Shown here one piece after another: positions 17,483 through 34,186 of a stretch of DNA of 36,219 bases. The notes beneath the pieces are model-generated. The model was not told where the DNA came from. It did not search any database and saw only the letters and a program-made list of their open reading frames with translations. A program made the translations under genes and the position numbers. The DNA is from Gammaproteobacteria bacterium (lineage in GTDB: Bacteria; Pseudomonadota; Gammaproteobacteria; Pseudomonadales; Azotimanducaceae): contig JAAXKB010000008.1 of the NCBI GenBank assembly GCA_012269545.1, forward strand, positions 76,348 to 112,566, given 5' to 3'. The first letter of the stretch is position 1. Each line of letters opens with the position of its first letter.

Positions 17483-19771
17483 CTATTCCAGCGTAATCGG
17501 AATTGCCTTATATCCAGCGGCTTCAAATGCCTTTTGTACTGAGTGAGTCGCGTCTGGACACAGGGCGATCATGGACCCGCCACCGCCGCCACCCGTGAGC
17601 TTGGCGCCAATAGCGCCGTGCCTGCGAGCGATATGAACCAGCTCTTCCAGTTCCGGTGTGGAGAGCTGTAGGGCATTCAAGTAGCCGTGACATAGGTTCA
17701 TCAACTCTCCCAGCTCGTCCAGACGACCTTCTTGCAAAGCACTCTGCCCGACACTGGTGAGCTGGCCGATTTGATCAAACAGGCTTTCATAACGATCCGG
17801 ATACTGCTGCCAAGACGCCCGGACTCTGGCGACGGTGTCTGCGGTCAGGCTCTCTTTACCTGTGACGCCAATCACTATTTCCAGCGGTTGGCCTAGGGTG
17901 ATATTGGTGAAGCGAGCCTGTTGCTGTGCTTCGTCTTGCTGACGTTGATACAGCAGGGGTGCTCCATAGGTTGCCACGGTGTTGTCGATGCCCGAAGGCG
18001 TGCCGTGAGCTGTTTTTTCGCATTCGAAGGCCAGCTCGTTAATGCGGCCATCGCTGAGCTGCAAGCCGTAGGCCTCATCAGCAGCGCGCAGAATAGCGAC
18101 GGCCAAAGCAGATGAACCGCCTAGTCCCATGGCTCTTGGAATGTGCGGGAAGACCTCAATGGTCATGTTTTCGCTGGCCAAGCCGATCTGGCTCATCAGC
18201 GTGGCGATGATACCGGCGAAGCCCGGCGCAGAGGGTCTTACCTTTTGCTCAATGCCCCAGCGGGGTATTAGCACGTTGATGCCGTCGCCTTCTTTGCGTA
18301 CGGCGGCTTCCACCGCAAGAGGTATGGGCAGTGCGATTGCCGGACGGCCGTAAACGACGGCATGCTCGCCTAACAAAATGATTTTGCCGTAAGCCGATTG
18401 TCGGTCTGCTGTTTCCGGCATGATCACTTTGCGTGACAAATTTTTCGCGATTTCCTGTGCTTTCCACACTTTGATTTCGCCGGATTCGATCAGCGTTTCG
18501 ACCACAGTTTCAAAAAATTCTTCCGCTACACCCGCAGTGCTGGCCACGCTGCGAGCGTGGAGGTTCATGTGATTTTGCTGAATGCCATCCGTTGACAATG
18601 CTCGCAGGGCCGCAAAGTTTTGCGCCAGCCCGACGACGCCCATCACGCCCGCAAGCTCCGATGCGCTCGGCGAGCCTAAGAGGCGGTGATTGATGCGTAC
18701 GCTGGGATTGGTTTCCAAGGAGCCGCCGACGGTACCGACTTTCATCGGGATGGCGATCTCGCCGACTAAGTAGCCTTCTTCGCGCTTATGCCAACGGGTC
18801 AGTGCCTGATAGCGGCCGTTGCGAGAGGCGTAGGCGTGTGCTGCGGCCTCGATAGCGCGCCAGTCGTTGCCAGTGGCTAAGGCGAGTGCATCGACGCCAT
18901 TCATGATGCCTTTGTTGTGCGTGGCGGCCCGGTAGGGGTCCGCCAACGCCAGGTCGTTAGCGAGTACGATGCCATCGCGCACCTGCTCACCTGTGTAGCC
19001 TTTGCCTTCGAGATTCTTCAGGGGAATGCGTACCTTAGCCCGGGCGATAGCCCGGTCGGTAAGGTTGGAGAGGATACGCAAAAAGACTTTGCCGCCGGTT
19101 AGGCCCTCAACATAGGCGGCAACACCTTCGCACATGGTGTTGACCAGATTGGCCCCCATCGCGTCTCGGGTGTCGACCAGAAGGTGCATGACGACCATCA
19201 GCCGTCCGTCTTCCTCGGCACGATAGTCGAACACTTCAATATCCAAGGCACCGCCACCGCGAGCCACCATCTTTGGATGCAGGCTGTTAGCCAGAGCGAC
19301 GATGTCATCTCGATGTTCGAGCAATGTTTGTTTTGCCAGTTCGGGATTCGAATCGATGACCACTTGAACCTGACCGATCAAGATAGGGTCAACGGGATCG
19401 ACGGTGAAGCCGCCACCCAATCGAGCCATGCGCGCTGCGCCGGACAGGCCCGCTACAATCGATGGTTCTTCAACGACGAGCGGCACAACATAGTCACGGT
19501 TGTTGATGAGAAAGTTCAGGGCAACGCCCATGGGCAGGCCAAATACCCCGACCACGTTTTCGATCATTTTGTCGGCAACGTTGAGTTGCACCTGATGGTT
19601 GCCGCTGGTCAGCAGCTGCACGTCTTCATTGCTGATCAAGCCGCGCTGGTGCAGGGCGCTGATGCGCTCTGCGATGGGCATGCGAAAAAAATTGGGGATT
19701 CGCGAAGAGCCGGTTAGATCAGTTTCGCCCGCAGCGTCGGAATCACTGTCGGTGCTGGAATGCGACACCAT
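17483..19771 (-). CDS. HMG-CoA reductase (class II) - mevalonate kinase fusion protein
   Basis: One uninterrupted 762-residue frame with two enzymes. Residues about 22-445 are class II HMG-CoA reductase: SRIPNFFRM start, ENVVGVFGLPMGVALNF (71-87), catalytic Glu in VVEEPS (E101/E102), nucleotide motif DAMGAN (203-208), K287 in HNKGIMNG, D303 in TGNDW and H405 in HMNLHARSV. Residues about 455-762 are a GHMP-type mevalonate kinase: YGKIILLGEHAVVYG (K463), ATP loop PRAMGLGGSSALA (545-557), E584 and catalytic D596 in HGTPSGIDN, and Gly-rich motif 3 (AKLTGGGGGGS, 723-733). The product would convert HMG-CoA to mevalonate and phosphorylate it. No ribosome binding site precedes the internal Met451, so a hidden separate kinase start is unlikely. 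The start lies inside the phosphomevalonate kinase gene (29-base overlap). Both active sites look intact. Confidence 0.93.
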   Translation of the reverse strand: MVSHSSTDSDSDAAGETDLTGSSRIPNFFRMPIAERISALHQRGLISNEDVQLLTSGNHQVQLNVADKMIENVVGVFGLPMGVALNFLINNRDYVVPLVVEEPSIVAGLSGAARMARLGGGFTVDPVDPILIGQVQVVIDSNPELAKQTLLEHRDDIVALANSLHPKMVARGGGALDIEVFDYRAEEDGRLMVVMHLLVDTRDAMGANLVNTMCEGVAAYVEGLTGGKVFLRILSNLTDRAIARAKVRIPLKNLEGKGYTGEQVRDGIVLANDLALADPYRAATHNKGIMNGVDALALATGNDWRAIEAAAHAYASRNGRYQALTRWHKREEGYLVGEIAIPMKVGTVGGSLETNPSVRINHRLLGSPSASELAGVMGVVGLAQNFAALRALSTDGIQQNHMNLHARSVASTAGVAEEFFETVVETLIESGEIKVWKAQEIAKNLSRKVIMPETADRQSAYGKIILLGEHAVVYGRPAIALPIPLAVEAAVRKEGDGINVLIPRWGIEQKVRPSAPGFAGIIATLMSQIGLASENMTIEVFPHIPRAMGLGGSSALAVAILRAADEAYGLQLSDGRINELAFECEKTAHGTPSGIDNTVATYGAPLLYQRQQDEAQQQARFTNITLGQPLEIVIGVTGKESLTADTVARVRASWQQYPDRYESLFDQIGQLTSVGQSALQEGRLDELGELMNLCHGYLNALQLSTPELEELVHIARRHGAIGAKLTGGGGGGSMIALCPDATHSVQKAFEAAGYKAIPITLE

Positions 19772-20702
19772 TTGTAGCCATCTCCAAATCTAGTGGTAAG
19801 AAGCCGTTTACTTCGGCTTGTTGTCGAAAAACTGCTAGGTCGTGCTGACTTTCGGAGAACGCAATGCCGATATCGCCACCACCTGCGCCACAGGGCTTAT
19901 AGAGCACCCCGGAAGCGGCGGCAAGTTTACCCAACCTTGCGTGTTCTTGGGTGAAAATATTGAGAATTGCTGACTTATCAAGGGCTCTGAGCGTTTCGCA
20001 GTAGTCGGCTAGCAATGCAAGGCTCGGGCCCAGCTTGCAGATCGCGTCGCTTATCGTCGCAAGTGCCTCCAAGGGTGCGTTGTCGGCTTGTTGCCGCCAT
20101 CGGTCGAAGCGCGCGATGTGATCGCCTGTCTTGGCGCTTTTGCCGCTCCACACGACCTGCCAAAAGAGATCTGCTGGCCAATCTGCCGGTGTCGCACGGC
20201 CCTGTTGAAAGTGGATTAGACCGCCATGCCAAGCACTTGCGACATCCAGTCCACTGCCTTTGCCGCCCTGCCAGAGGCGGTGCAATGCCATAACTTCGCT
20301 GATTTCGGGGTTGCGCTGGGTAAGCTCGCACAGAATGCGGTACGTTGCAGTGCAAACTGCCGCTGATGAACCCAGCCCAAGTTTTTGCTCTGCTGCGTAG
20401 AATGCGGAACTGTCGGTTGTCATGCTCAGCGGCGTGGAACAGTCTGCCAAGGTTCTGTAGCCCCAATGAGCCAAAATCAAACGCAGAAACGCACTTTGCG
20501 GGTCATCGGGGAGTTGATCACCTGGGCAGCTGGCTGGTGCCGTGGCAAATCCCTCGCTGCGGAAATGCCAGTTGTTATCAGGGGAGGGATCCGTCCAGAC
20601 TGTGGCTCTGCTGCTTAGCGCCATCACCCCAGCGGGCGCGCCAGTCAATACGGCGTATTCACCCCAAACGACGATTTTGCCCGGCGCCGATGCATAGGTC
20701 AT
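19743..20702 (-). CDS. Phosphomevalonate kinase (GHMP family, ERG8-like)
   Basis: 319 residues with GHMP kinase features: APGKIVVWGEYAVLTG (6-21), ATP loop QKLGLGSSAAVC, GGKGSGLDVASAWHGG and the C-terminal PCGAGGGDIGIAF. The KGSGLDVA signature and the position between mvaD and the reductase-mevalonate kinase fusion support phosphomevalonate kinase, which forms mevalonate diphosphate. The protein is shorter than fungal Erg8 but close to bacterial forms. It overlaps mvaD by an ATGA and overlaps the next gene by 29 bases, so the three genes are tightly coupled. The alternative, another mevalonate-phosphate kinase type, is less likely because a classical decarboxylase is encoded next door. Confidence 0.82.
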   Translation of the reverse strand: MTYASAPGKIVVWGEYAVLTGAPAGVMALSSRATVWTDPSPDNNWHFRSEGFATAPASCPGDQLPDDPQSAFLRLILAHWGYRTLADCSTPLSMTTDSSAFYAAEQKLGLGSSAAVCTATYRILCELTQRNPEISEVMALHRLWQGGKGSGLDVASAWHGGLIHFQQGRATPADWPADLFWQVVWSGKSAKTGDHIARFDRWRQQADNAPLEALATISDAICKLGPSLALLADYCETLRALDKSAILNIFTQEHARLGKLAAASGVLYKPCGAGGGDIGIAFSESQHDLAVFRQQAEVNGFLPLDLEMATNGVAFQHRQ

Positions 20703-21634
20703 GTGATGACTCGAGCACCTTCGCCAAGAGAGCTGCGGAGCACGTCGACCACCCCGGGCGTTTCGGCCAGTGCGCTGGCAACAGCCGTGGCGCTCGCTGG
20801 TAGGCAGACAGCCTTGATTTGCGGCCCGGCGTCCACGGTAAAGAACACATCGTGTCCTTCTTCACGCAGACTGCGAATCCGATCCATGCAGGCGATGCTG
20901 GCTGGAGTCCAGTAGCTTAGGGCTGGCTGGCTGGTAAGCATGGCCGAATGCATTTTCAGACAGTTAAATTCGGCTACGTCGGCTAGCTTGGGAAAGTCTC
21001 TGTTTTCAATAGCCTCAGACGCGGAGGCAAAGTCGGTTGTCGCATCGCGCACCCAGACGTTGTAGTAAGGCGACGTCAGTCTGGACCGCTCCATACCCTC
21101 GCCGGAGCTGACGCTTTTTGGCTCGTTGCTGGTGACGGCAACCACCACTTCCAGCGGCCAATGATCACGTTTCGCCATGGGGATTGCTTGCCATTGGGGC
21201 GGCACTAAGGCCACAAAGCCGCCGAAAATCGAGCGTGCGGCACTGGCGGAACCCACACGCGCCCACTCGGAACACATTTCCTGATTCAACCCCAGATCGC
21301 AGTGAGCGTTGATGGCCGTGATCAGGGCGGCAAAGCCCGATGCCGAGGACGCCAAACCTGCACTGGTAGGAAAATCATTGCTACTTTCAATTTGCAGCGG
21401 AGGCACATCGAAGGTGCTGCGCAGGGTTTCTAGCCAGCGAACCAGTTTCGGGTCGCTGTTCGCTTCGCCGTTGAGAATGAAGATGTCTGACGGTGCGTCG
21501 CTGACTTGGGTGACGGTAGTCAAACCTGCCAAGGTGATGGACAGATTCGGGGTTGCCGGCAAGTTTCCCGGTTTTTCCTGTTTGCCCCAATATTTCACCA
21601 AGGCAATGTTGGGATGGGCATGGGCTGTTGTCAT
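20699..21634 (-). CDS. mvaD: Diphosphomevalonate decarboxylase
   Basis: 311 residues. ALVKYWGKQ (11-19) is the decarboxylase N-terminal signature, the phosphate loop region is FPTSAGLASSASGFAAL (88-104), and the catalytic Asp is D268 in FFTVDAGP, matching Asp293-type residues of eukaryotic enzymes. It performs the ATP-driven decarboxylation of mevalonate diphosphate to isopentenyl diphosphate, the last step of the pathway encoded here. It starts 17 bases after the stop of an AS amidase on the same strand and ends in an ATGA overlap with the kinase gene. Confidence 0.94.
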   Translation of the reverse strand: MTTAHAHPNIALVKYWGKQEKPGNLPATPNLSITLAGLTTVTQVSDAPSDIFILNGEANSDPKLVRWLETLRSTFDVPPLQIESSNDFPTSAGLASSASGFAALITAINAHCDLGLNQEMCSEWARVGSASAARSIFGGFVALVPPQWQAIPMAKRDHWPLEVVVAVTSNEPKSVSSGEGMERSRLTSPYYNVWVRDATTDFASASEAIENRDFPKLADVAEFNCLKMHSAMLTSQPALSYWTPASIACMDRIRSLREEGHDVFFTVDAGPQIKAVCLPASATAVASALAETPGVVDVLRSSLGEGARVIT

Positions 21635-25819: not shown

Positions 25820-26293
25820 CTACCGCTTAAGGCTGTTCAAGTACTTGATCAGCGTCAGCGTTTCCTCAGGATCCATACGTCCTACCGGCGCGTTGCTGTA
25901 GGCGGAAAACATGACCTTACCCTGTGCGTTCAGCACGAACTCGCTGGGTTGAATGAAATCTCGTCGCTCGTCCCACCAGGAACCAAGCGCGTTGCCAATC
26001 TCGCGGGTCACACCATAGGCAACGGGGAAGTTCAAGGGCCCAGCGACTTTTTGGGTGTCTTCTAAAGAATCCACCGTCCCGGCGATGATGCTAACCCCTT
26101 CTGCTGCGAACGCATCACGGCGCTCTTCGTAGCCGGCTAAAAGCCGCCGGCAATAGGGTCACCAATGGCCCCGGTAAAACAGCACGACGGTGTAGGGCGT
26201 CGTGAGATCCGAAGGCAACACAATCGTTGCGCCATCGGTGCTGGTTAACGTGATCTCCGGAAATGGATCTCCGGACGTAAGCATGGCGGTCAT
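25820..26293 (-). CDS. Peroxiredoxin (AhpC/TSA family) with in-frame TGA at the catalytic Cys: probable selenoprotein
   Basis: Reading TGA at 26161-26159 as selenocysteine gives one 157-residue peroxiredoxin: residues 1-44 end in VVLFYRGHW, residue 45 is the TGA, then PYCRRLLAGYEERR, continuing to NSLKR and a TAG stop. In this family the segment is FYRGHWCPYC, so TGA falls exactly on the peroxidatic Cys and leaves a Sec-x-x-Cys pair (U45, C48). Both sides are conserved and in one frame, with GGGAG six bases before the ATG. A GC-rich hairpin follows the TGA (see 26132-26151). Sec peroxiredoxins reduce peroxides, often with thioredoxin or glutathione-type donors. The gene follows the aminotransferase gene by 23 bases. 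Plain gene calling would give only fragments. Alternatives are a point-mutated pseudogene or a base error; no selA, selB, selC or selD is in the window. Confidence 0.8.
26132..26151 (-). promoter_or_regulatory. Candidate bacterial SECIS hairpin downstream of the TGA codon
   Basis: In the mRNA, 7 bases after the TGA, six G-C pairs form between GCCGGC (26151-26146) and GCCGGC (26137-26132) around an 8-base loop GGCUUUUA. A loop opening with G is typical of bacterial SECIS elements. The loop begins 13 bases after the TGA (16 if the TGA is counted), at or just below the short end of the usual range. A self-complementary GCCGGC pair can arise by chance in this GC content, so the hairpin is supporting rather than decisive. 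Confidence 0.55.
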
Positions 26294-26316
26294 AACTGTC
26301 TCCCTTCCTGTTTTGT

Positions 26317-29792: not shown

Positions 29793-32288
29793 TTAGTTTG
29801 CATCGTGTTTTTTCGAGCGTTCGGCAAACACGGTCCGCGCTGGCGCCGGGTTGCGGATCAGCTGAGAGGCTGGGGTTTTGCGTTCGTATTTCTCTGCCGG
29901 CGTGTTGATGATTTCCAGCAGTTCCCCTTGAGCCTGGCCGGCCTTAATGCGTTCGTCGCTCACGGTTCCGTAGACGGTTGAGCGTTGCAGCGGATCTCGG
30001 TTCAAGCGACGCACCAAATTCGCCATTTGCCTTGGGCTGGTTTCCTGACCGTGCTGCGTACCTGCAGCGCGACTGATGGATTCGTTCATCAGCGTACCGC
30101 CCAAGTCGTTGCAGCCGGCATTCAGACAGGCTTTGACGCCTTCGTGGCCCATTTTTACCCAGCTGGTTTGGATGTTGGATATTTGACCGTGCAATGCCAG
30201 CCGTGCCACCGAGTGCATCAAAATCGCCTCCCGGAATGTGGGCCCCTTGCGGGCCTTGCCCTTGAGGTACATGGGCGCTTCCATATGCACGAAGGGCAGG
30301 GGAACAAATTCGGTGAAACCGCCGGTACGCTCCTGCAGAGCGCGCACCCGCATGATGTGTCTGGCCCAGTGCTCTAGCTTCTCGACGTGGCCATACATGA
30401 TTGTCGCCGTAGTCTTGAAACCGACCCCGTGGGCCGCTTCCATGACCTGCAGCCATTGCTCGGTATTGATCTTGTCAGCGCAGATCATGTCTCTGACATC
30501 GTCGTCCAATATTTCCGCGGCGGTACCGGGCAGAGTATTCAGGCCCACGTCCTTGAGTTGCTGCAAATAGTCGCCCACCTCAAGCCCCAAGGTGGCCGCA
30601 CCTTGCCAAACTTCCAGCGGCGAGAACGCGTGAACGTGCATGTTGGGCTCGGCGGCCTTAACGGTGCGCACGATGTTGAGGTAGGTCTCGCCGGTATACT
30701 CCGGGTGGATACCGCCTTGCATGCAGACTTCTGTGGCGCCGCGCTCCCAAGCTTCCTGAGTGCGTCGGGTGAGTTCTTCATCGGACAAATCGTAGGGTCT
30801 GCCGCGCAGGTTTTCCGACAGCTTGCCCTTGGAAAACGCGCAGAACTGGCACTTGAAGTAGCAAATGTTGGTGTAGTTTATGTTCCGGTTGACGACAAAG
30901 CTGACGCTGTTGCCGTTGGTTTGTGCCCGCAGAGCGTCTGCACATTGAACGACCGCGGTGAAGTCATCGCCCCGGCTCCGGAAGAGGCGCACTATTTCGG
31001 ATTCGGTCAGTGCATTGCCCGTCTTGGCTTTGTCTAGAATGGCCAAGATGTCATCGCTGACATGCTTGGGCGAATTCACAATGGCGTTCATGACTTCTGA
31101 TGGCGGGGCAATTTCAACATCGCCGGGGCACCAGTCATCTGTACGCGGAAACCCTTCGGCGTCGATCATCTCCAGCACGCGGACGTGTAAGTCTGGATGC
31201 GCCCATCGATCCAAGTCCGTGGCGTAGTCGGGATAAATGGTCAGGCGCTCGGTCAGGTATTTGCCCGCAGAGGCCGTCTCTCGCATCAGGTCATCCAGAT
31301 GTGGCCATGGGGCTTCGGGATTGACGAAGTCGGGTGTGACCGGTGATACGCCACCCCAATCGTTGATGCCTGCGTGCACAATTTGCGGCAGTACGCCCGG
31401 GCTCAAATTCGGTGGAGCTTGCACGCTCATAGTCGGGCCAAAAATCAGCCGAGCTATAGCGATGGTCCAGAGCAATTCGTTCAGATCCGGCTCGGGCGCG
31501 TTAACCATTTTGGTTTCAGCCTTGGCACGGAAATTTTGCACGATGATTTCCTGCACATGCCCGTATTGCTCGTGAATGTTGCGAATGGCCAGCAGGCTCT
31601 CGATACGCTCCAGCCGGGTTTCGCCGATACCGATTAAAATGCCGGTGGTAAAGGGCACGGCGGCAATGCCCGCGTTGGCTAGGGTCTGCAGTCGCACGGC
31701 TGGGATCTTGTCCGGTGAGCCATAGTGCGGCATGCCTTTCTCGCACAGACGTTCCGATGCAGACTCCAGCATGATGCCCATGGACGGCGAAACAGTCTTC
31801 AGTCTGGCCAACTCCTCTGGCTCAAGGTTGCCGGGATTCAAATGTGGGAGTAGCCCGGTTTCCTCAAACACGGCTTTTGCCGCCGCAAAGAGATAGTCGG
31901 TAGTGGTCTCATAACCCATCTCTGCCAATGCATCCCGAGCGGCCTTGTAACGCAGCTCGGGTTTTTCGCCCAAGGTAAATAGGGCTTCCTTGCAGCCCAT
32001 GGCTGCGCCGTGGCGCGCCACTTCCAGCACTTCTTCAATGCTCATGTAGGGCGCCATAACCTTGCGCGGTACCTGAGCAAACGTGCAGTAATGGCAAACA
32101 TCCCGACACAGGTGGGTCAAAGGTATAAAAACCTTGCGCGAGTAGGTCACCGTGTTGCGGAATCCTTGGTCGCGTAGCACGGAGGCCACATCAGCCAGCG
32201 CCCGGGTATTCGAGAAATCCGCTAAGGCCAAGGCTTCAGCATCAGCCAGCCGCTCGCCTCGCAGAACGTTCTGAAGAGCAGCGTTCAT
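29793..32288 (-). CDS. fbiC: FO synthase, fused CofG-CofH radical SAM protein
   Basis: 831 residues with two radical SAM domains. The N-terminal CofG-like domain has CRDVCHYC (C61, C65, C68) and the C-terminal CofH-like domain has CYFKCQFC (C476, C480, C483), each holding a 4Fe-4S cluster. Together they join tyrosine and 5-amino-6-ribitylamino-uracil to form 7,8-didemethyl-8-hydroxy-5-deazariboflavin (FO), the chromophore of F420. The fused form is typical of actinobacteria and other F420-making aerobes; archaea usually have two genes. The ATG overlaps the end of cofC by 4 bases. All other F420 genes lie just upstream, so a photolyase-only FO role is unlikely. Confidence 0.96.
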   Translation of the reverse strand: MNAALQNVLRGERLADAEALALADFSNTRALADVASVLRDQGFRNTVTYSRKVFIPLTHLCRDVCHYCTFAQVPRKVMAPYMSIEEVLEVARHGAAMGCKEALFTLGEKPELRYKAARDALAEMGYETTTDYLFAAAKAVFEETGLLPHLNPGNLEPEELARLKTVSPSMGIMLESASERLCEKGMPHYGSPDKIPAVRLQTLANAGIAAVPFTTGILIGIGETRLERIESLLAIRNIHEQYGHVQEIIVQNFRAKAETKMVNAPEPDLNELLWTIAIARLIFGPTMSVQAPPNLSPGVLPQIVHAGINDWGGVSPVTPDFVNPEAPWPHLDDLMRETASAGKYLTERLTIYPDYATDLDRWAHPDLHVRVLEMIDAEGFPRTDDWCPGDVEIAPPSEVMNAIVNSPKHVSDDILAILDKAKTGNALTESEIVRLFRSRGDDFTAVVQCADALRAQTNGNSVSFVVNRNINYTNICYFKCQFCAFSKGKLSENLRGRPYDLSDEELTRRTQEAWERGATEVCMQGGIHPEYTGETYLNIVRTVKAAEPNMHVHAFSPLEVWQGAATLGLEVGDYLQQLKDVGLNTLPGTAAEILDDDVRDMICADKINTEQWLQVMEAAHGVGFKTTATIMYGHVEKLEHWARHIMRVRALQERTGGFTEFVPLPFVHMEAPMYLKGKARKGPTFREAILMHSVARLALHGQISNIQTSWVKMGHEGVKACLNAGCNDLGGTLMNESISRAAGTQHGQETSPRQMANLVRRLNRDPLQRSTVYGTVSDERIKAGQAQGELLEIINTPAEKYERKTPASQLIRNPAPARTVFAERSKKHDAN

Positions 32289-32956
32289 GACTGATTCTCC
32301 GGTCGATTCCGTCGTGATGCCAGGCGATCCACGATGCCGGAACGATTGAGGTAGCTGGCCGTTTGGCTGCGTGGCTGTTTCGCAAGCAAGGTTTGCAAAT
32401 CGCTTGGCGTATCAATATCCAGAGCAAAACAGCTGCCAGGGATTATGCGCGGCGTTATGTCGCGGGCGAATGCCGCATCTGCATGAGGCTTAAAACTTTT
32501 GCCGTCAAAGATAAAGGGCACGGCCTTCGGTGGGCTGCAGATCATACCGTTTGTTCCAACGTGTTCTGCATCGGGAAGCAGGGTTACAGCTGTATTGGCG
32601 GTAATCAACTCGTCCACCTGTTCGGTCGTGATGCCGGGGACGTCGGCTGGCACGATAAAAACGCCCTTGGCGTCAAAGTGCTTAATCAGATAATCCGTCG
32701 CTTGAGTCAAGGCACCGGCCAGATTGGTATGCGGACTCTCGGCAAAGCGTTCGGTGGAGAATGCCGAAGCAAGCACATCGGCCTCAGCTGCGCGAGACAC
32801 AATTAAGATGCCGTCGAGATGTTTAGCTTTGGACAAACAGGTCAGCACGTCGCGCGCCATGGCCAGCATCAGCGATCGTCGTTCCTCCTCGTTTAAGACG
32901 TTAGCCAGTCGTTGCTTCGCTCGCTCGAACGTCTTGATGGGAACAATCGCCCACAT
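32285..32956 (-). CDS. cofC: 2-phospho-L-lactate (or PEP / 3-phosphoglycerate) guanylyltransferase
   Basis: 223 residues from the ATG at 32956, 6 bases after AGGAG; the ATG two codons earlier (32962) directly abuts that site. The CofC/FbiD start WAIVPIKTFERAKQRL (2-17) contains the nucleotide-binding Lys-rich loop; VPADVPGIT, SPPKAVPFIFD and CFALDIDTPSDLQ match the family. The enzyme activates a three-carbon phospho-acid with GTP to give the guanylylated donor used by CofD. Which acid is used (phospholactate, PEP or 3-phosphoglycerate) cannot be read from sequence by eye. It overlaps fbiC by 4 bases, and 282 bases without a gene separate it from the cofD stop. Confidence 0.93.
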   Translation of the reverse strand: MWAIVPIKTFERAKQRLANVLNEEERRSLMLAMARDVLTCLSKAKHLDGILIVSRAAEADVLASAFSTERFAESPHTNLAGALTQATDYLIKHFDAKGVFIVPADVPGITTEQVDELITANTAVTLLPDAEHVGTNGMICSPPKAVPFIFDGKSFKPHADAAFARDITPRIIPGSCFALDIDTPSDLQTLLAKQPRSQTASYLNRSGIVDRLASRRNRPENQS

Positions 32957-33238
32957 TGGCATCTCCTATTTGTTAATCGGACGCTAGCGACCCCTATTCG
33001 CACTCCTTTGATTTGTGCAACTGAGTTGTCGTCAACGTATATGTGTCTCAATCGTCTCGAACCAGGCCACCATTGAGCAGCCATTGGTTACCAAACGTTA
33101 CAAACCTATCATGCCAAGGACAGTGGCGATAGCGGGGATTTTAATCTGTGGTGCTCAAGCAATCTCCGAATGTGACCGTGGAGCGGGAATTTGATCGCAG
33201 GGGAGGGGACCGGCAAAAGCGTTTTTGCGGGATTATCG

Positions 33239-34186
33239 TTAGGTTGGCAGCTCGCTAAAAAATGCCAGACATCGCTCTGCCAGAGCAATTCTATCTTTCA
33301 GGCTCTTCATCACGGATTGGGTCGCTACAGTAGGCAAGGCGATGGCGTCGAGGCTCTCGCCGTCGGATTCATCAATGACAAAGCCATTGAGCAGGCCGGG
33401 ATAGTGGCGTTGATAGTGTTCTGCGACGGCAACAGCGCTAGCAGGAATGTTCAATTCTTGCATCATCTTGGCGGCCGGTCCTTTGATGGCCGTGCCCGCC
33501 ACAATGGGTGACACTGCAACGGTGGGAATGTGGGACGCAGCCTCGAGAAAACCGTGCACCTCAATCACCGGGGCGACCGAAACGAAGGGATTTGATGGAC
33601 AGATGATGATGCCGTCGCAGTCGGTCAGCCATGCGGCGATGACTGGATTTAAGGTGGCACTATGCACGCCGTCAAAACGAAAACCGCTGACTGCAGGTGC
33701 GCACTGTTCTCGAACAAAGTAATGCTGGAACGCCAACTCGCCAATGTCGCTTTGTACGACGGTACGAATAGGATCGTCGCTGACTGGCGCAACGGTGTGT
33801 TTGATACCCATGCGCTGAATAATTTCCGCGGTCGCTTCGGTCAGCGTCGCGCCTTGGCCCAGCAGCTGGCTCCGTCGGGTATGCAGGGCCATGTCTTTGT
33901 CGCCCAGTCGGAACCAGTCCTCGCCGCCCAGACTGCCCAAGGTGTCGATGAACTGCCACGTTTCACCAGCGCGTCCCCACCCCAGTTCTTGATTGTTTTC
34001 TTGTGCCAACGCGTAGGTCAGGCTGTCGATATCAGGACTGATGTGCAGCCCCAAATGGGTGAAGTCATCGGCTACGTTGACGGCAAACAGCACCTGCTCA
34101 GGGCCCAGAATTTTGGATAACCCCAAGGCCAGTTTGGCGCCGCCAACACCACCGGTAATCGCCAGTATTTTTTGCGGCCTTGGCAT
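33239..34186 (-). CDS. cofD: 2-phospho-L-lactate transferase
   Basis: 315 residues. The CofD/FbiA signature is at the N-terminus: ITGGVGGAKLALGL (10-23), with NVADDFTHLGLHISPD, WFRLGDKD and CPSNPFVSVAPVIEV further on, and SPIVAGTAIKGPA near the C-terminal third. It transfers the guanylylated three-carbon unit from the CofC product to FO, giving F420-0 or dehydro-F420-0. The ATG shares one base with the cofE stop, indicating tight coupling. Confidence 0.95.
   Translation of the reverse strand: MPRPQKILAITGGVGGAKLALGLSKILGPEQVLFAVNVADDFTHLGLHISPDIDSLTYALAQENNQELGWGRAGETWQFIDTLGSLGGEDWFRLGDKDMALHTRRSQLLGQGATLTEATAEIIQRMGIKHTVAPVSDDPIRTVVQSDIGELAFQHYFVREQCAPAVSGFRFDGVHSATLNPVIAAWLTDCDGIIICPSNPFVSVAPVIEVHGFLEAASHIPTVAVSPIVAGTAIKGPAAKMMQELNIPASAVAVAEHYQRHYPGLLNGFVIDESDGESLDAIALPTVATQSVMKSLKDRIALAERCLAFFSELPT

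Follow-up and report, generated by a model that had tools for sequence, protein, structure and literature searches.

A gammaproteobacterial Prx-like UxxC gene, very probably a selenoprotein gene, with a nearly frozen distal hairpin after its UGA codon

The window analysed here, a stretch of 36,219 nucleotides from a gammaproteobacterial genome (contig JAAXKB010000008.1 of assembly GCA_012269545.1), contains a 157-codon frame whose sole internal stop is a TGA at codon 45 (Table 1). This locus raises the question of whether the TGA ends a short protein or is translated as selenocysteine (Sec) and, if it is translated, which RNA element guides the decoding and what kind of enzyme is made. When the TGA is taken as a residue, the product matches the Pfam family AhpC-TSA (PF00578) with 70.6 bits (cut-off 26) over residues 8–128, so that one domain covers both sides of the TGA, in line with the original prediction that conserved sequence flanks the TGA in a single frame. 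U45 and C48 are the only Sec or Cys residues of the protein, which is probably cytosolic, with no leader peptide seen by eye.

Table 1. Positions of the selenoprotein gene and its elements in the window, and of the sibling genes on other contigs of the same genome
Feature	Position	Strand	Details or basis
Prx-like UxxC selenoprotein gene (very probable)	25820..26293	minus	157 codons, ATG 26293-26291 to TAG 25822-25820
In-frame TGA, codon 45, very probably read as Sec	26159..26161 (26161-26159)	minus	TGA/Cys alignment of homologous loci
TGC, Cys48, UxxC partner of Sec45	26150..26152	minus	corresponds to the peroxiredoxin peroxidatic Cys
Probable ribosome binding site AGGAAGGGAG, purine-rich, just 5′ of the ATG	26300..26309 (26309-26300)	minus	read from sequence
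Proximal hairpin HP1, nt 14-30 (U of UGA = nt 1), codons +4 to +9	26132..26148	minus	covariation, synonymous redraws
Distal hairpin HP2, GAGCGC[CGUGAU]GCGUUC, nt 37-54, loop 43-48, candidate SECIS	26108..26125	minus	constraint, pairing, redraws
Sibling AhpC/TSA gene L109, single in-frame TGA	C55:4103-4492		
Sibling AhpC/TSA gene L110, single in-frame TGA	C71:6008-6388		
Sibling AhpC/TSA gene L112, single in-frame TGA	C48:120318-120701		
Sibling AhpC/TSA gene L117, single in-frame TGA	C66:4943-5161		

A scan of contigs found 145 relatives of the gene, and the best 80 loci were kept for codon comparison. Among these, the codon aligned to the window TGA is TGA in 34 (L025–L058) and TGC or TGT in 46 (L059–L104), so the TGA does stand where the family has Cys, as had been proposed from the window alone. 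The 34 TGA loci are also the 34 top-scoring of the best 80, and the second Cys of the motif (C48) is encoded by TGC or TGT in all 80. Best-segment identity between the TGA loci and the window gene ranges from 87 down to 54%, and none of the 34 has a further in-frame stop in the matched frame. When the window gene is compared with its seven nearest relatives (L025–L031), dN 3′ of the UGA is 0.03–0.14 and dS 0.55 to >2, giving dN/dS of roughly 0.03–0.08; this part therefore evolves as a translated protein under purifying selection. A tree of 45 sequences, with 18 of its 42 inner branches well supported, needs two Sec/Cys label changes and is also compatible with one.

The source genome (2.85 Mb, 88 contigs, 99.13% complete) carries selA (518 bits, cut-off 267.9), selB (406 bits, cut-off 242.25) and a tRNA-Sec gene (72.4 bits, gathering score 47; ARAGORN concurs, anticodon TCA), all within about 6.5 kb of contig C50, together with selD on contig C34 (260 bits, cut-off 125). 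The original prediction had named these four genes as a check to be made, and a lack of selB and tRNA-Sec as evidence against it; all four are present. PF00578 has 11 matches in this genome, five of which, the window gene included, carry one TGA each, placed in all five within a UxxC motif, and the genome seems rich in Prx-like selenoproteins. The selD gene (G000 C34:734-1639, L105) shares one open frame with an upstream, putatively NADH-dehydrogenase-like part, and this frame resembles the fusions that PMC2398784 reports from the GOS data under the name Ndh-SelD.

Among the 34 genomes with UGA homologues, selB scores over its cut-off in 27, one of which (G262) has an internal TAA in it, and tRNA-Sec does so in 24; 28 genomes have one or both. 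Neither was found in six (G244, G246, G249, G260, G266 and G271, all MAGs of unstated completeness). In five of these six, the part of the selB model that covers the elongation factor finds no match at E ≤ 1e-40; since some selB-positive genomes also have no such match besides selB itself, this absence at most hints that sequence is missing. Of 16 Cys-form genomes examined, selB is over cut-off in eight of the ten nearest (L059–L068), so that selB alone does not separate Sec from Cys forms, and in none of the other six (L074, L075, L077, L085, L098 and L100). The genome of L074 (G288), in which the gene relative carries Cys, has a selB-like match at C5:63571-64500 that scores 238 bits, just below the cut-off, and is interrupted by four TGA and one TAG; it is possibly a decayed selB. 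Sampling of 244 genomes from the order gave selB in 33, against 27 of the 34 UGA-form genomes, the two sets having been chosen differently. The gene itself was found at E ≤ 1e-30 in three of the 244, the window's genome among them; all three have TGA and selB, and all belong to the window's genus.

Could the TGA nevertheless be a nonsense mutation or a sequencing error, leaving a pseudogene and a protein truncated after 44 residues? The mechanical ORF list shows just one short ORF after the TGA (25820-26074, GTG start), as such a lesion would produce, but the same TGA recurs at 34 other loci of 54–87% identity (best 80 of 145 relatives), the frame has no other stop, and purifying selection continues beyond the TGA, which makes this explanation extremely improbable. 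That the UGA is translated without selenium, as Trp or some other standard residue, is just as hard to credit. A frame that is open under an altered code does not prove Sec, but Cys occupies the site in all 46 homologues that lack TGA (best 80 of 145), the Sec machinery is present, and TGA is an ordinary stop in the source genome, terminating 10 of the 25 window ORFs counted (hand-picked). The conserved UGA, the Sec machinery, the sibling UGA genes and the purifying selection after the UGA all argue, at the level of sequence, that UGA codon 45 is very probably read as Sec and that the gene is a selenoprotein gene, as originally predicted. SelA, SelB, SelD and tRNA-Sec of the same genome would decode the codon, and an RNA hairpin 3′ of it, most likely the distal one with loop CGUGNN, would guide them.

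The family is not new, and on this point too the original prediction agrees with the literature. In the Sargasso Sea study of 2005 (PMC1088965), a Prx-like family with 22 selenoprotein sequences has UXXC replacing TXXU; the GOS study (PMC2398784) gives 225 'Prx-like 1' selenoproteins (pfam00578, UxxC), and a table in PMC13188914 includes a 'Prx-like thiol:disulfide oxidoreductase' with PF00578 and UxxC. The window protein likewise combines the AhpC-TSA domain with a thioredoxin-like UxxC in the place of TxxU and, matched by domain and motif, fits this family known since 2005. With the Sec-containing peroxiredoxin (TxxU, PF00578), as a table in PMC13188914 presents it, it shares fold and Pfam domain, but its Sec stands three residues earlier and it retains neither the Thr nor the Arg position. 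With the AhpC/TSA selenoprotein cd02970 (UxxS), compared by its description in the same table, it shares the peroxiredoxin-like label and a Sec that comes first in the motif, which is UxxC instead of UxxS. A text search of the open-licence literature for the letters of its active-site motif found no paper. The window gene is a well-supported Sec member added to a known family and placed in genomes with a Sec system, and ordinary annotation may truncate its 34 UGA relatives in public contigs.

In the predicted model of the protein (from an alignment of 33 sequences; pLDDT 95), U45 lies directly before helix 46–57. The top solved-structure match is Sulfolobus Bcp4 (3hjp, TM 0.88), and peroxiredoxins make up nearly all of the 50 matches shown, a single DsbE-type protein standing at rank 43. 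The peroxiredoxin active site has a Pro, a Thr and an Arg with catalytic roles. When the window protein is aligned with the solved peroxiredoxin-2 chain 5ijt_A, C48 corresponds to the peroxidatic Cys, U45 to the catalytic Thr, R41 to the Pro and P116 to the catalytic Arg. The original prediction had equated the UGA with the peroxidatic cysteine and was thus off by three residues. Each of R41, U45, C48 and P116 is invariant in the 35 UGA sequences, and among the Cys homologues in the same alignment (n = 10) R41, C45 and C48 are kept in all ten and P116 in four. In place of the classical peroxiredoxin site, PxxxTxxC/U with a catalytic Arg, the protein has R41, U45 and P116 (PMC13188914 quotes the motif as PxxxTxxU). 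Aligned with ResA, a thiol-disulfide oxidoreductase, U45 matches the first Cys of CxxC and P116 falls on a Pro. As modelled, the protein combines a peroxiredoxin fold with a UxxC site of the thioredoxin type.

We consider a thioredoxin-like oxidoreductase, with a presumed substrate and reductant, to be somewhat more probable than a classical peroxidase. Sec45, at the helix start, would attack a disulfide or a peroxide, and Cys48 would resolve the adduct as an internal Se–S bond, which fits U45 and C48 being the only Sec/Cys residues; a cellular thiol reductant would then recycle this bond. Genuine peroxidase activity in vivo, either with C48 as the peroxidatic residue and Sec45 resolving or by direct reduction of peroxide by Sec45, is in our judgement unlikely. 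It would suit the peroxiredoxin fold, with Bcp4 and other true peroxiredoxins as the top matches, the position of C48 on the peroxidatic Cys, and the conservation of Pro116 in just four of the ten Cys homologues, but the replacement of the peroxiredoxin Pro, Thr and Arg by R41, U45 and P116 holds in every one of the UGA sequences.

Synonymous constraint was calculated for the 35 UGA genes (UGA as codon 0; 1000 draws from pooled codon use) at positions with at least 20 copies of one amino acid. Synonymous variation is zero at codons +13 (CGC for 33 of 33 Arg), +14 (CGT for 32 of 32 Arg) and +16 (GCG for 33 of 33 Ala), and there is little of it at +1, +4, +5, +7, +8 and +9 (each p < 0.001); codons −8, −3, +17 and +47 have p under 0.01, and most other listed codons vary freely. 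The sequence CGCCGTGNNGCG occurs at the place of HP2 in 32 of the 35 UGA genes and, among the 46 Cys homologues, in none of the 10 examined. Codons +13, +14 and +16 form part of HP2, the sequence of which hardly varies, a constraint that goes further than the protein demands. The three exceptions, L046 with a different distal hairpin, placed at 42 nt, L047 without the frozen sequence, and L057 with the stem kept and the loop changed, mean that HP2 is not universal.

Pairing was assessed on an alignment of 34 distinct rows, in which 93.4% of the cells of HP1 and HP2 pair; sliding the pairing partners lowers this to 28–41%. Two-sided changes occur in five pairs, a value reached by 3 of 500 shuffles, and the other four measures were reached by 0 of 500, in a test where related sequences can exceed shuffles without any structure. 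Without prompting, RNAalifold predicted the core of each hairpin. A three-way junction that adds a basal helix (91.2% of cells paired) was rejected, its columns being largely conserved Pro/Gly codons. Hairpins were also counted against 300 synonymous-codon redraws, with thresholds chosen after the alignment had been inspected. A hairpin of at least 5 bp with G in loop positions 1–2 and a spacing of 39–42 is present in 32 of 35 UGA genes (redraws: mean 8.0, maximum 15), and one of at least 5 bp with any loop and a spacing of 16–18 in 29 of 35 (mean 9.9, maximum 17); among ten Cys genes, neither type was found. Energy z-scores over the 51 nt from the UGA, a stretch that cuts off HP2, gave no excess stability (mean −0.16 for the 35 UGA genes and −0.43 for ten Cys genes), and for sliding 48-nt windows on the UGA genes the lowest mean was −1.03 (offset −15), with no clear peak after the UGA.

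The published bSECIS model (PMC13188914) has a stem of 4–16 bp, a loop of 3–9 nt with G in its first two positions, a UGA-to-loop spacing of 16–37 nt and a minimum free energy of at most −7.5 kcal/mol; the same source reports bSECIS elements that fail this model, and the mere existence of an exception is therefore no novelty. A hairpin within the model is present in 29 of 41 UGA genes scanned (the 35 plus six others). In the window gene, a scan of uninterrupted stems of at least 4 bp found no hairpin with both the loop-G rule and a spacing of 16–37 nt. HP2 resembles the bSECIS consensus in its 6-bp stem and its 6-nt loop with G then U at positions 2–3, but differs in its spacing of 39 nt, 2 nt beyond the range, and in having a second conserved hairpin between it and the UGA. 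Judging from its sequence, HP2 is most likely the best SECIS candidate and would be the element bound by SelB; if so, prediction tools should permit longer, structured spacers. Such an architecture outside the spacing rule is testable, and it was noticed through synonymous-site constraint, not folding energy. A text search of the open-licence literature found no published account of a SECIS with a second hairpin.

HP1 could itself be the SECIS, with another role for the frozen distal sequence. Its loop begins 16–18 nt after the UGA, within the published range, and its pairs covary, but a stem of at least 5 bp that also satisfies the loop-G rule is found in just 13 of the 35 genes. The window copy fails, having an uninterrupted 5 bp and the loop UUU with no G, and RNAfold favours a different pairing for this stretch. 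Moreover, L055 and L056 keep HP2 with most of HP1 disrupted, and this counts against a need for HP1; we think it improbable that HP1 is the SECIS.

With HP2 as the preferred candidate, HP1 may still contribute. We put forward, tentatively and with some doubt, a bipartite SECIS in this marine gammaproteobacterial Prx-like lineage, in which HP1 would fold away 17 nt of spacer and HP2 would be presented to SelB at about 22 nt. This effective distance would be close to the 20–21 nt spacing of the CGUG-loop hairpins in two of the sibling UGA genes (L109 and L112), and scanners bound to the published spacing would miss the window gene. A third sibling, L110, has a hairpin at 39–40 nt with the loop CGGUCG or GGUC, as does its relative L148; this distal hairpin is absent in L147 and L149–L151, where folds give a proximal hairpin. 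The presumed SECIS thus lies far from the UGA (about 40 nt) in L110 and L148 and near it (about 17 nt) in L147 and L149–L151, as if it had moved. L149, L150 and L151, from three other genomes of the order, each show two different UxxC frames with in-frame TGA, close together on opposite strands.

As for the surroundings of the gene, homologues of its desaturase and aminotransferase neighbours flank 10 of the 34 UGA loci (L025–L032, L034 and L035). A shared operon or partner was considered and set aside; no functional partner was inferred. Elsewhere in the window, positions 17483-21634 hold a cluster for the mevalonate pathway, which encodes a 762-aa fusion of HMG-CoA reductase and GHMP kinase as well as a protein resembling diphosphomevalonate decarboxylase. 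Positions 29793-34186 encode a radical SAM protein with a CofH C-terminal domain (831 aa) together with CofD, a combination that resembles coenzyme F420 biosynthesis, here in a gammaproteobacterium.
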